DNA of 35,751 bases from Bacillota bacterium. GTDB taxonomy: Bacteria; Bacillota; Clostridia; Saccharofermentanales; UBA5734. The notes below the pieces were generated by a model. That model saw only the letters and a list, made by a program, of their open reading frames with translations, did not search any database and had not been told where the DNA came from. The position numbers and the translations under genes are program-made. Of the stretch, positions 27,927-32,232 are shown piece after piece. The stretch spans positions 1 through 35,751 of the forward strand of contig JAKPNJ010000206.1 of NCBI GenBank assembly GCA_029548445.1. The letters are read 5' to 3'. Positions within the stretch are counted from its first letter, which is position 1; every line of letters starts with the position of its first letter.

Positions 27927-28595
27927 TCAGGTTCCGGCTGCAGGATCGGCGTTTTCCGGACTTGGTTCCGCGGCTGCCTTCCTGCGCTTCCGTGCCTTGG
28001 GAGCGGTGGCTTTGGCAATGACTGCCACGGCGGCTTCCCTTTTCTTCCGCCCCGTGCCTTTTCGTGCGGGCTTCCCGGCTGCCCGGGCCCGCTTCGGGGT
28101 TCCGGACGGTCCGGACGTGCCAAGGACCCGGGCCTCGCCCAGGGCGACTGGTTCAATGGATTCCATGGAATGCTCCACGGCGGGATAGACATCCACTTCC
28201 GGCTCGAGGGGGGCCGGAATGACATAGGATTCCTCCGCGACTTTCTTCGGACGGCCGCGCTTCTTGCCGGATGCGGGCTTCTCGGCTCCCGGAGCGGCAA
28301 CCGCCTCGTCGGAAGCCGGATTCCTGCGGGGACGCCCCCGGCGCTTCGTCTCCGAAGGAACGGCGTTCACGGTTTCCGACGGCTGCTTCCTTGGGCGGCC
28401 GCGCTTCCTGGGCGGCGCGTCCGACGGGACGGCAGCAACCGATGGGACGGCGGCAGGGCCCGCGATGGTCACCACGGCTTCGGTCAGGGCCACGACGATC
28501 TCCGGGATCGTCCGCCCGGACTGGGCAGCCAGTGCCTCCAGCCGCTCCCGGACCGGGGAGGGAAATTCCATGACATACTTGGTCTTGCGTCTCAT
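27927..28595 (-). CDS. RHH-like/AT-hook DNA-binding protein with basic tail
   Basis: Uncharacterised 222-residue protein that looks like a nucleoid-type DNA binder. The N terminus (about 5-44) resembles a ribbon-helix-helix unit: a short strand YVMEF, then two predicted helices separated by SGRT. Three AT-hook motifs follow, each with the GRP core: KRGRPRK (64-70), RRGRPRR (85-91) and KRGRPKK (112-118). An acidic, Pro-rich stretch (about 121-155) separates them from a Lys/Arg/Ala-rich tail (168-207) similar in composition to histone H1 tails. ATG at 28595 has AAAGGAAGG upstream, 13 bp after the HAD gene stop, so the two form an operon. The protein is predicted from composition and motifs; it could instead be a transcription regulator. 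Confidence 0.8.
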   Translation of the reverse strand: MRRKTKYVMEFPSPVRERLEALAAQSGRTIPEIVVALTEAVVTIAGPAAVPSVAAVPSDAPPRKRGRPRKQPSETVNAVPSETKRRGRPRRNPASDEAVAAPGAEKPASGKKRGRPKKVAEESYVIPAPLEPEVDVYPAVEHSMESIEPVALGEARVLGTSGPSGTPKRARAAGKPARKGTGRKKREAAVAVIAKATAPKARKRRKAAAEPSPENADPAAGT

Positions 28596-28608
28596 GTGAT
28601 CCTTCCTT

Positions 28609-29505
28609 TCATGATTCCAGAATTTTTTCGGATTCAGTCGGAGTTCGATATGGCATCGAGGAAACCTCGAGAATCCTCCTGATCTGGCCGATTACGGCCG
28701 GGAGGCAGGGGGTGGAATGGTCCGGCAGCACGACATCGGCCGCCTGCTTCACGATATCGGGGGCCTGGCCCATGGCAAAGGCAAAATCCGCCTCCTGCAG
28801 CAGCCCCAGGTCATTCTCATGGTCGCCGGCGGCCGTGAACAGGACGATCGGCCGGATGGCGTCCAGCTTGGCTTTCAGGAACCGGGCGGCCTCCCCCTTG
28901 TCCGTGCCCGCCCGCATGACATCCAGGAGCGTATCCGACGACCGCGTGACGGCCAACCGGCCCGGCATGGCGTTTTCCAGCAGGGATCGGGCTGCCAGGA
29001 GATCGGATTCGGGACCGGACAGGAGGATTTTGTAAAGGATGGCAGGGAGGCGGTCGAACCCCCCGGGAATCGGCCGGGCCTTTTCCGGTGCGAAATGGCG
29101 GCGCATTTCGTCGTTGTCCACGATCCGGTGCATCCCGTCCGCCGAGAAGGCCTGGACGGCCAGCCCCGGTATCCGGTCGAGCACGGTCCGGACCGCGTCC
29201 ACGGTTCCCTCCGGCAACGGGAGACCCCGCACCAGGGTTCCATCCTGTTGTTCCACAATCATGGAGCCATTGCAGTAAATTCCGGGCTGGTCGACGGGAA
29301 GCTCGGGAAGGCTCGCCAGGACGGAATGGGGCGACCGTCCCGTCGCAACCGAAAAACGGCCTCCCTGCAGCCTGAACCAGGTCAATGCCGCCAGGTTGTC
29401 GGGATGGAGCGTCGAATCCGGTCCCAGCAGCGTGCCGTCCAGGTCGCAGACAAGGTAAACGCCTTCCAGGGAGCCCTGCGCCCCCCCATTCATTCCAGGG
29501 TCCAA
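28609..29505 (-). CDS. Cof-type HAD-IIB sugar-phosphate/nucleotide phosphatase
   Basis: Cytoplasmic haloacid-dehalogenase-family phosphatase with a type IIB cap, probably acting on small phosphorylated metabolites. With the chosen start it has 298 residues. Motif I is VCDLDGTLL (nucleophile D21, acid/base D23), motif II SVATGRS, motif III the Lys in TDKGEAA, and motif IV GDHENDLGLL. The TTG start at 29505 has GGAGG five bases upstream and fits the promoter at 29566-29594; an ATG at 29541 would give 12 more residues but lacks any ribosome binding site. It is followed after 13 bp by the AT-hook gene. Confidence 0.85.
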   Translation of the reverse strand: MDPGMNGGAQGSLEGVYLVCDLDGTLLGPDSTLHPDNLAALTWFRLQGGRFSVATGRSPHSVLASLPELPVDQPGIYCNGSMIVEQQDGTLVRGLPLPEGTVDAVRTVLDRIPGLAVQAFSADGMHRIVDNDEMRRHFAPEKARPIPGGFDRLPAILYKILLSGPESDLLAARSLLENAMPGRLAVTRSSDTLLDVMRAGTDKGEAARFLKAKLDAIRPIVLFTAAGDHENDLGLLQEADFAFAMGQAPDIVKQAADVVLPDHSTPCLPAVIGQIRRILEVSSMPYRTPTESEKILES

Positions 29506-29540
29506 TCGGTCCTCCGTCCGTGTGCGCGGCATCCGCGCCA

Positions 29541-29594
29541 TGAAATTCTGTTATTAGTAATTTTTAATATATTATTTTATTATTTATTAATCAA
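29541..29594. other. 54-bp AT-rich tract in the divergent promoter region
   Basis: This is the most AT-rich stretch in the window: from 29551 to 29591 only one base is G or C, in a genome that is otherwise GC-rich. It contains repeated TTATT/AATAA runs. It sits between the divergent HAD/AT-hook operon and the sulfur-relay gene and contains the core promoter of the former. It is a natural candidate target for an AT-hook protein. Confidence 0.8.
29566..29594 (-). promoter_or_regulatory. Promoter of the HAD/AT-hook operon
   Basis: On the minus strand TTGATT (29589-29594), a 17-bp all-AT spacer and TATATT (29566-29571) give a good sigma-A type promoter within the AT-rich tract. Transcription would start near 29559, leaving about 54 bases to the TTG start of the HAD gene, including its ribosome binding site. 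Confidence 0.6.
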
Positions 29595-29692: not shown

Positions 29693-29718
29693 GTGACCAT
29701 CGAATGGAGGATTGCGAC

Positions 29719-32232
29719 ATGGCAAGGCGGATTATCATTGTCGGAGGCGTGGCGGGCGGCGCCACCGCGGCAGCCAGGCTTCGGCGGCTGGACGAACATG
29801 CGGATATCCTGGTGTTGGAGCGGGGTCCCCATATCTCCTTTGCCAACTGCGGGCTGCCCTACCACATCAGCGGAACGATCAAGGACCGCCGCCGCCTTCT
29901 TCTCCAGACCCCCGAATCCTTCCGGTCCCGGTTCAACGTCGATGTCCGAGTCCGGACCGAGGCGCTGAAAATCGACCGGGCCAACCGGACCGTGACGGTC
30001 CGCCATCCCGACGGCAGCCTGACCGAGGAGTCCTATGACGCCCTGATCCTGTCCCCCGGGGCGGAACCCATCCTGCCGCCCATTCCCGGCGTTCGCGAAA
30101 AGGGTGTCCTGGTGCTTCGGAACATCCCCGACATGGACCGGATCCTGGAAGTGGTCAGCGAAGAGAAGACCCGGAGCGCCGTCGTCGTGGGAGGCGGGTA
30201 CATCGGTGTCGAAATGGCCGAGAATCTTCGGGAAGCGGGTCTCTCGGTGACCATCGTGGAACTGGCCGACCACGTGATCCAGTCGATCGACGCGGACATG
30301 GCGGCGGATGTCCATGCACACCTTGTGGACCACGGCATCGGCTTGCACCTGAACACGGCGCTGACTGCCATTACGAGGGCCGGCGGGCGCCTGTCCCTGG
30401 CCCTGTCGGATGAAAGCCGCCTGGAAACCGATCTCGTGATCCTGTCGGTCGGGGTAAGGCCGGAAACGTCCCTCGCCCGGGAAGCCGGGCTCCGGACCGG
30501 CGTCCGGGGCTGCATTGTGACGGACGACACCATGCGCACCGACGATCCCGCCATTTATGCGGTCGGGGACGCCGTGGAGGTGACGGATTTCATCACGGGC
30601 CAACCGACCTTCATTCCCCTGGCCTCTCCCGCCAACCGGCAGGGCCGCATCGCCGCGGACAACCTGTGCGGCATTCCATCCCGGTATCGGGGAACCCAGG
30701 GCACCGCCATCCTCAAGGTGTTCGACATGGCCGTGGCGTCCACGGGAGCCAGCGAGAAGACCCTTAAGGAAAAGGGCATCCCGTATGGCAGAACCGTGAC
30801 TTTCAGCGCCGACCACGCTTCCTATTACCCTGGGGCGACCTACATGACCCTGAAGACGCTGTTCCACCAGGGGACAGGCAAGCTGCTGGGCGCCCAGATC
30901 ACGGGGTACAACGGCGTGGACCGGCGGATCGACATCCTGGCCGTCGCCATCCGGGCCGGCATGACAGTGGAAGACCTGCAGCACCTGGAACTTGCCTACG
31001 CGCCGCCGTTCGGGTCGGCCAAGGACCCGGTCAACATGGCGGGCTTCGTGGCCGGCAACCTCCTGTCCGGGCTCGACAGGGAGTTCGCCTGGAACGAGGT
31101 GGCAGGGCTCGACCTGTCGCGCATAACCTTGCTGGATATCCGAACCTCGGAGGAGTTTGAAAACGGGAGCATCCCGGGGGCGGTCAACATTCCCCTGGAT
31201 GATCTCCGCCAGCGGATCGGGGAGCTGGATCCCGGGAAACCCGTGTATCTCTTCTGCCAGATCGGTCTGCGGGGCCATGTCGCAGCCAGGATCCTGTCCC
31301 AGCGCGGGTTCGATCCGGTGTACAACCTTTCGGGCGGCTATCGGTTCTACCGGTCCAATACCCGGTCCTTCCCCGCCCTGGCAGCTGCCCCCCATGCCAG
31401 GAACGAGGTCAGCCCGATCCTCCAGGACGCCCTGGATGCCGACCTGTCGGAAGCCAGCATCCCCCAGCAGGAACGGGGCGAATCCCTTCCCGCGGTCCAT
31501 GCCGTGGACGCCTGCGGCCTCCAGTGCCCGGGTCCGATCCTGCGGCTGGCCGAGGCTGTTCGGCAGGCCGGCATCGGGGACCTGGTCGACATCCTGTCGA
31601 CGGACCCGGCATTCTCCTGTGATGTGGACGCATGGGCCCGCAGGACGGGGCACCGGGTCGTGGAGAAAGCGGTCGAGCAGGGACGTTCAAGGGTCCGGAT
31701 CCTCAAGGAAGCGCCTGCAGGAGTCGAAACGGAGTCCCGGACTCCGGCCGGCGCCACGACCGGTCGGGGCAAGAACCTGGTGGTCTTCTCCCAGGACCTG
31801 GACAAGGCCATCGCCGCCTTCATTATCGCCAACGGGGCCGCCGCCATGGGTCGACCGGTCACCATGTTCTTTACATTCTGGGGGCTCAACATCCTCCGGC
31901 GGCGGGAACGGGTCCGGGTCCGCAAGTCCCTGGTCGAGAGCATGTTCGGGTGGATGATGCCCCGCGGGTCCACACGGCTCGGCCTTTCCAGCATGAACAT
32001 GATGGGGATCGGTCCCCGCATGATCCGGGGCATCATGAAACGCAAGCACATCGACTCTCTCGAGGACCTGGTCCGAACGGCCCTCGGCAACGGTGTCCGG
32101 CTGGTGGCCTGCACCATGTCCATGGATGTCATGGGAATCCGTCCGGAAGAGCTGATTGACGGGGTCGAGCAGGGCGGTGTGGCCTCCATGCTGGATTTCG
32201 CCGAGGACAGCGACATGTCCATGTTCATCTGA
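29719..32232 (+). CDS. Four-domain sulfur-relay fusion: CoA-disulfide reductase / rhodanese / TusA / DsrE
   Basis: An 837-residue cytoplasmic protein. Residues 1-450 are a CoA-disulfide/persulfide reductase: FAD motif GGVAGG (9-14), redox C44 in SFANCGLPY, NAD(P)H motif VGGGYIGVE near 156-164, and the FAD-binding YAVGDAVE. A rhodanese domain (about 455-555) has active C513 in LFCQIGLRG. A TusA domain (about 593-665) has CGLQCPGP with C599 and C603. A DsrE-like domain (about 686-837) has C798 in VACTMSMD. Each domain carries or transfers persulfide sulfur, so the chain could pass sulfur internally or reduce CoA persulfides. ATG at 29719 has GGAGG nine bases upstream. Similar multi-domain proteins are known in anaerobic Firmicutes; the in vivo substrate is not known. 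Confidence 0.92.
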   Translation: MARRIIIVGGVAGGATAAARLRRLDEHADILVLERGPHISFANCGLPYHISGTIKDRRRLLLQTPESFRSRFNVDVRVRTEALKIDRANRTVTVRHPDGSLTEESYDALILSPGAEPILPPIPGVREKGVLVLRNIPDMDRILEVVSEEKTRSAVVVGGGYIGVEMAENLREAGLSVTIVELADHVIQSIDADMAADVHAHLVDHGIGLHLNTALTAITRAGGRLSLALSDESRLETDLVILSVGVRPETSLAREAGLRTGVRGCIVTDDTMRTDDPAIYAVGDAVEVTDFITGQPTFIPLASPANRQGRIAADNLCGIPSRYRGTQGTAILKVFDMAVASTGASEKTLKEKGIPYGRTVTFSADHASYYPGATYMTLKTLFHQGTGKLLGAQITGYNGVDRRIDILAVAIRAGMTVEDLQHLELAYAPPFGSAKDPVNMAGFVAGNLLSGLDREFAWNEVAGLDLSRITLLDIRTSEEFENGSIPGAVNIPLDDLRQRIGELDPGKPVYLFCQIGLRGHVAARILSQRGFDPVYNLSGGYRFYRSNTRSFPALAAAPHARNEVSPILQDALDADLSEASIPQQERGESLPAVHAVDACGLQCPGPILRLAEAVRQAGIGDLVDILSTDPAFSCDVDAWARRTGHRVVEKAVEQGRSRVRILKEAPAGVETESRTPAGATTGRGKNLVVFSQDLDKAIAAFIIANGAAAMGRPVTMFFTFWGLNILRRRERVRVRKSLVESMFGWMMPRGSTRLGLSSMNMMGIGPRMIRGIMKRKHIDSLEDLVRTALGNGVRLVACTMSMDVMGIRPEELIDGVEQGGVASMLDFAEDSDMSMFI

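Follow-up and report, generated by a model that had tools for sequence, protein, structure and literature searches.

The stretch of DNA analyzed here (the window, 35,751 nucleotides) comes from a GC-rich, uncultured clostridial bacterium with a genome of 3.03 Mb and 65% GC. The gene under study occupies positions 27927-28595 of the minus strand, stop codon included, and was assigned from its open reading frame, a match to the Pfam family AT_hook (PF02178) and syntenic relatives in two other genomes. Its ATG begins at 28595, its last codon ends at 27930 and its stop codon lies at 27927-27929, giving a protein of 222 amino acids. We consider the frame to be coding because a good ribosome-binding site, GGAAGGATCACATG (GGAAGGA), precedes the start, GC3 is 0.735 and the two relatives are syntenic. 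Three plus-strand antisense frames (27997-28188, 28170-28682 and 28264-28599) were rejected as spurious, since the minus-strand frame is the conserved one. The protein is present in single copy in its own genome.

A gene for a Cof-type HAD-IIB phosphatase (28609-29541, minus strand) lies 13 bp upstream and is syntenic in genomes G006 and G013; its true start may be the TTG at 29505, about 5 nt past a GGAGG. Due to the short gap and the shared strand, the two genes probably form one operon with the HAD gene first. Between this operon and a divergent gene on the plus strand (29704-32232) is a 34-bp tract made up purely of A and T (29558-29591). The divergent gene, which shares this intergenic region, is predicted from sequence reading to encode an 842-aa protein in which a CoA-disulfide-reductase-like portion is joined to rhodanese, TusA-like and DsrE-like segments.

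Domain layout of the predicted protein

Residues 1-46 (28458-28595, minus strand) are weakly charged and are predicted to form a domain resembling a ribbon-helix-helix (RHH) unit, with helices at residues 13-26 and 30-44. AlphaFold2 placed the helices at 13-26 and 30-44/49 with pLDDT values of 82-91 over the helices; when an alignment of three sequences was supplied, they were placed at 13-26 and 30-49, with pLDDT values of 84-91 across most of the length. Comparison of residues 1-51 with the PDB using Foldseek returned MatP at the top (probability 0.98), followed by AmrZ (0.91), Arc, ParG, CopG, PutA, CopASO and MazE. RHH proteins constituted nearly all of the 50 listed matches, of which the best had an E-value of 0.13 and none fell below 0.1. 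No strand is present in the AlphaFold2 monomer model of the N-terminus; in RHH proteins the strand forms only in the dimer.

The RHH-type N-terminus proposed in a preliminary description of this DNA is supported by fold comparison. The profile search suggested at the same time gave a divided outcome: AT_hook exceeded its cut-off (E=3.9e-5), and the RHH profiles remained under theirs (RHH_5, E=0.021 and 15.0 bits versus a curated cut-off of 26; Arc, E=0.032 and 14.5 bits versus 20.4). Weak Arc-like matches were also obtained for the N-terminus from PHROGs. A search of the PDB with an N-terminal profile was discarded because spurious matches to TALE repeats, each repeat contributing about 3 bits, dominated the output. 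The same type of profile revealed no paralogue of the domain above noise within the family. From the models, we regard an RHH fold as likely, if short of proven.

The predicted strand-helix-helix layout is that of Arc, CopG, AmrZ and MatP, which are among the leading Foldseek matches; we know of no AT-hooks in any of these four. By comparison with Arc, we take K6, V8 and E10 to occupy the places on the strand that usually make contact with DNA; the corresponding residues in the G006 relative are K, T and K. The window protein thus differs from RHH regulators in presenting an acidic residue, E10, at a position inferred from Arc to contact DNA. For this reason, its RHH part may serve dimerization more than the reading of bases.

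Three AT-hooks matching PF02178 follow: residues 63-71 (RKRGRPRKQ, GRP at 66-68; 28383-28409), 84-92 (KRRGRPRRN, GRP at 87-89; 28320-28346) and 111-119 (KKRGRPKKV, GRP at 114-116; 28239-28265), all on the minus strand. The Pfam profile identified three stretches (23.5 bits versus a cut-off of 17.4), the best of which spans residues 110-121 and includes the third hook. All three hooks fit the pattern [KR]RGRP[KR][KR]. The placement of GRP-core hooks at 64-70, 85-91 and 112-118, with spacings of 21 and 27 residues, was given correctly in the preliminary description; the strand, which was left unstated there, is the minus strand. When residues 47-222 were shuffled 200,000 times, two [KR]GRP[KR] motifs arose in 7 shuffles and three in none; basic composition alone thus does not account for the hooks.

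Between the last hook and the C-terminal tail is an acidic linker (residues 122-160, 28116-28232, minus strand) with a net charge of -7 by charge count, an element that had previously been overlooked. The tail itself (residues 161-222, 27930-28115, minus strand) has the Lys/Arg/Ala composition that had been ascribed to it: its net charge is +13, its K+R content is 27% and AlphaFold2 predicts it to be disordered.

Relatives and A/T content of the locus

Whole-protein searches of the BLAST type recovered no relative, because the tail is of low complexity and the N-terminus is divergent. Relatives were instead located by searching the family with the AT_hook profile, by reading open reading frames and by following the synteny of the HAD gene through 188 genomes of the order. 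The first, in G013, is a 262-residue frame with three hooks that was found by the family search and subsequent frame reading; the second, in G006, has two hooks and was found downstream of the HAD gene. Both genomes belong to the same family as the window genome but to another genus. Both proteins exceed the Pfam AT_hook cut-off, and both have an N-terminal domain of like layout and a basic tail, which in the relatives resembles histone H1 and carries a net charge of +36 and +39. True AT-hooks are retained in both syntenic relatives, though in varying number: the three proteins have 3, 3 and 2.

Gene order is identical in the three genomes (disulfide-reductase-like gene, HAD gene, AT-hook gene and convergent tandem GNAT gene), with an extra gene before the HAD gene in G006 and G013. 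Note that identity of the relatives to the window protein in the N-terminal region is only 18-27%, and orthology consequently rests on synteny and layout. In G002, which represents a third genus and has 44% GC, the tandem GNAT genes converge on the HAD gene at a distance of about 54 bp, and the intervening DNA lacks an AT-hook gene. Since the same neighbors occur there without it, the AT-hook gene is cleanly present in some genomes and missing in another at a site that is itself conserved. When a profile built from the three proteins was run against 188 genomes at the level of the order and 391 at that of the class, no further members were detected, such that the protein is found in two genera only. 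The three carriers are the GC-richest genomes sampled in the family (about 65-68% GC versus 44-64%). No match pointing to a phage or plasmid origin was obtained in our searches, PHROGs returning only the Arc-like matches noted above.

A/T statistics were derived from pattern searches and from a DNA sample. In the pattern search of the 3.03-Mb window genome, runs of at least 15 A/T bases occurred 8 times, and the 34-bp tract was the sole run of at least 20 found. Preliminary speculation that the protein addresses a small set of AT-rich sites gains indirect support from this rarity, all the more because the one long run lies in the promoter of the operon that encodes the protein. A promoter scan yielded 4 promoter-like sites in 2 kb where 0.2 were expected. 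Minus-strand sites at 29601-29574 and 29594-29566 place sigma-70-like -10 hexamers of the operon inside the tract.

The 100 bp upstream of the operon are 71% A/T, the maximum among 167 gene starts in sampled DNA, against a background that excludes contigs with other long A/T runs. In a sample of 40 contigs of this genome, 10 short ones (about 6% of bases) read as N. A second A/T-rich stretch (28596-28695), which lies just upstream of the AT-hook gene and overlaps the 3' end of the HAD gene, is 54% A/T and falls in the top 3.6% of sampled upstream regions. In the relatives, the A/T content of the 100 bp that precede the AT-hook gene or operon is 68% in G006, above all 172 sampled starts, and 51% in G013, a value reached by 2 of 112 sampled starts (top 2%). 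When 150-bp windows were slid along each fetched locus, the A/T maximum coincided with the region upstream of the AT-hook gene or operon in all three genomes. In another sampling of G006 and G013 DNA, the A/T content of the region ranks high but not first.

The position of the tract is not strictly conserved, because the A/T-rich spacer lies directly 5' of the AT-hook gene in the relatives and the long tract lies 5' of the HAD gene here. Note also that the three genomes are related to each other and are not independent tests, and that A/T-rich upstream DNA can simply signal a strong promoter.

Two other A/T-rich regions were encountered. A near-identical, partly palindromic element, TATATGTATATGAAAATATATTTATATACATATA, occurs at contig ends at L218:110-190 and L232:5445-5525 (G000:C84 and C224); these are possibly copies of the same repeat or operator, and the AT-hook protein may have a second target in this element. 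The GC-rich genome G013 contains a compact island of A/T-rich DNA, about 2 kb long (L265:15800-17900, G013:C32), that may be a mobile element.

Proposed function and known systems

Each step of the proposed mechanism is conditional. The N-terminal RHH domain would dimerize, and each chain would carry a disordered, HMGA-like arm with three hooks and a basic tail, so that the dimer would display six hooks to the minor groove of A/T-rich DNA. Its main site would be the 34-bp tract in the promoter of the HAD-AT-hook operon. An AT-hook core covers about five or six A/T base pairs, and a tract of this length could accordingly take about six hooks. Bound protein would cover the -10 region and block RNA polymerase, which would constitute simple negative feedback on the operon; the divergent disulfide-reductase-like gene would perhaps be repressed as well. 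With the opposite sign, binding would activate the operon, as WhiB7 does at its own promoter.

Our confidence differs among the parts of this reading. Binding to DNA with a preference for A/T is probable. For binding to the protein's own promoter the balance tips only slightly in favor and, given such binding, repression is somewhat better favored than activation. For the reading as a whole, in which an RHH dimer attaches by its hooks to A/T-rich promoters, chiefly that of its own operon, which it most likely represses, we find the case evenly poised. We are more doubtful of a further proposition, that the protein is a lineage-specific regulator whose RHH dimer with six hooks would select its target by the length and rarity of A/T runs instead of by a specific sequence. 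If self-control by way of the genome's only long A/T tract is real, it offers a simple, testable case of A/T content serving as an address in a GC-rich bacterium.

AT-hook proteins are common in eukaryotes and the motif is chiefly familiar from the chromatin proteins of animals and plants; to our knowledge, few bacterial examples have been studied (CarD and WhiB7). Like the window protein, eukaryotic HMGA1 and HMGA2 have three GRP-core hooks in a disordered, charged chain, but they are without a folded DNA-binding domain and have an acidic tail, whereas the window protein begins with an RHH-like domain and ends in a basic tail. CarD of Myxococcus xanthus binds A/T tracts near promoters through a disordered arm that has four RGRP hooks (PMC4374960). 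In CarD, as predicted for the window protein, the N-terminus is folded and leads into a disordered arm that bears RGRP hooks and an acidic segment (PMC4374960). The N-terminus of CarD, however, binds RNA polymerase and CarG and not DNA, and the corresponding part here is RHH-like and about 46 residues long. Searches for the CarD_CdnL_TRCF domain gave no match; Pfam and NCBIfam returned only AT_hook and a weak RelB-like match.

WhiB7 uses its AT-hook to recognize an A/T-rich motif that lies upstream of the -35 element in its own promoter, where the hook helps SigA (PMC3905903). WhiB7 is thus an AT-hook regulator with an A/T-rich target at its own promoter, as is proposed for the window protein. 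Unlike the window protein, WhiB7 combines a single hook with an Fe-S WhiB domain, of which none was found here, and activates through SigA. Lsr2 and H-NS read the A/T minor groove by means of a (Q/R)GR AT-hook-like motif (PMC4466236); the window protein would share this manner of reading but differs from them in predicted fold. No description of a bacterial protein that joins an RHH domain to several AT-hooks was found in the searchable literature.

Alternative readings and hooks on other clostridial proteins

The best surviving alternative, which we nevertheless consider unlikely, is a general nucleoid-associated protein of the histone-H1/HMGA type, in which the RHH domain dimerizes or bridges while hooks and tail bind DNA broadly to organize the chromosome. 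The very basic, H1-like tails of the relatives agree with such a role, as does the identity of the top fold match, since MatP is a chromosome organizer. A global nucleoid function had been suggested from the start, but HU is already present (6 of 6 genomes tested), the protein is confined to two genera and was not found in the other genera sampled in the family, and long A/T sites are few.

Less probable is that the hooks are part of a basic, low-complexity, disordered arm with no role on DNA, in which case function would depend on the N-terminal domain together with some partner, either protein or RNA. When the class was searched with the three-protein profile, the weak matches that were read proved to be hook-only, on unrelated proteins that were named by reading their sequences and not by family search: Rho, M18-type aminopeptidase, CpaE-like ATPases, membrane coiled-coil proteins, a TraG-like ATPase and transposases. 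GRP hooks on the first four of these speak for a role away from DNA. Such proteins, though, show no DNA-binding fold of the RHH type, while the hooks of the window protein follow an RHH-like domain and its gene is near the only long A/T tract found in the genome. Because near-identical hooks occur on proteins with no obvious DNA role, AT-hook matches in Clostridia as read here are by themselves no evidence of DNA binding or of a chromatin role, and the survey is a warning against reading them so. What distinguishes the present case is the combination of hooks, RHH-like domain, conserved locus and A/T tract.

We assign marginally less weight still to a xenogeneic silencer like Lsr2, H-NS or Rok, which would silence A/T-rich acquired DNA in a GC-rich genome. 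This is attractive because the carriers are the GC-richest genomes sampled in the family and the Lsr2 profile (PF11774) has no match in the window genome. Against it, nothing here ties the AT-hook protein to acquired genes, the gene is missing from two genera of about 63% GC and the predicted fold is unlike those of H-NS and Lsr2. Weak RelB-like (E=0.028) and BrnA-like (E=0.032) matches might suggest the antitoxin half of a toxin-antitoxin pair, an RHH protein whose tail is unusual. This is very improbable because no toxin-like gene adjoins the AT-hook gene, its neighbors being a housekeeping-type HAD phosphatase and the convergent GNAT pair, and the matches are far under the cut-off (14.6 bits versus 50).

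Several hook-bearing proteins of the class merit mention for themselves. M18-type aminopeptidase-like proteins of one clostridial family (L152, L154-L156, L161-L165 and L167) have two N-terminal hooks (KRKRGRPRKN...), an odd location for a DNA-binding motif. CpaE-like (pilus/Tad-type) ATPases of about 770 residues (L146, L147 and L149) have a long disordered linker that includes two GRP hooks. The Rho termination factors of several Clostridia (L020, L029, L157 and L158) have one or more AT-hook-like GRP motifs in an N-terminal extension, and SWIM zinc-finger proteins of one family (L012, L014 and L018) have a single C-terminal hook (KKRGRPRK).
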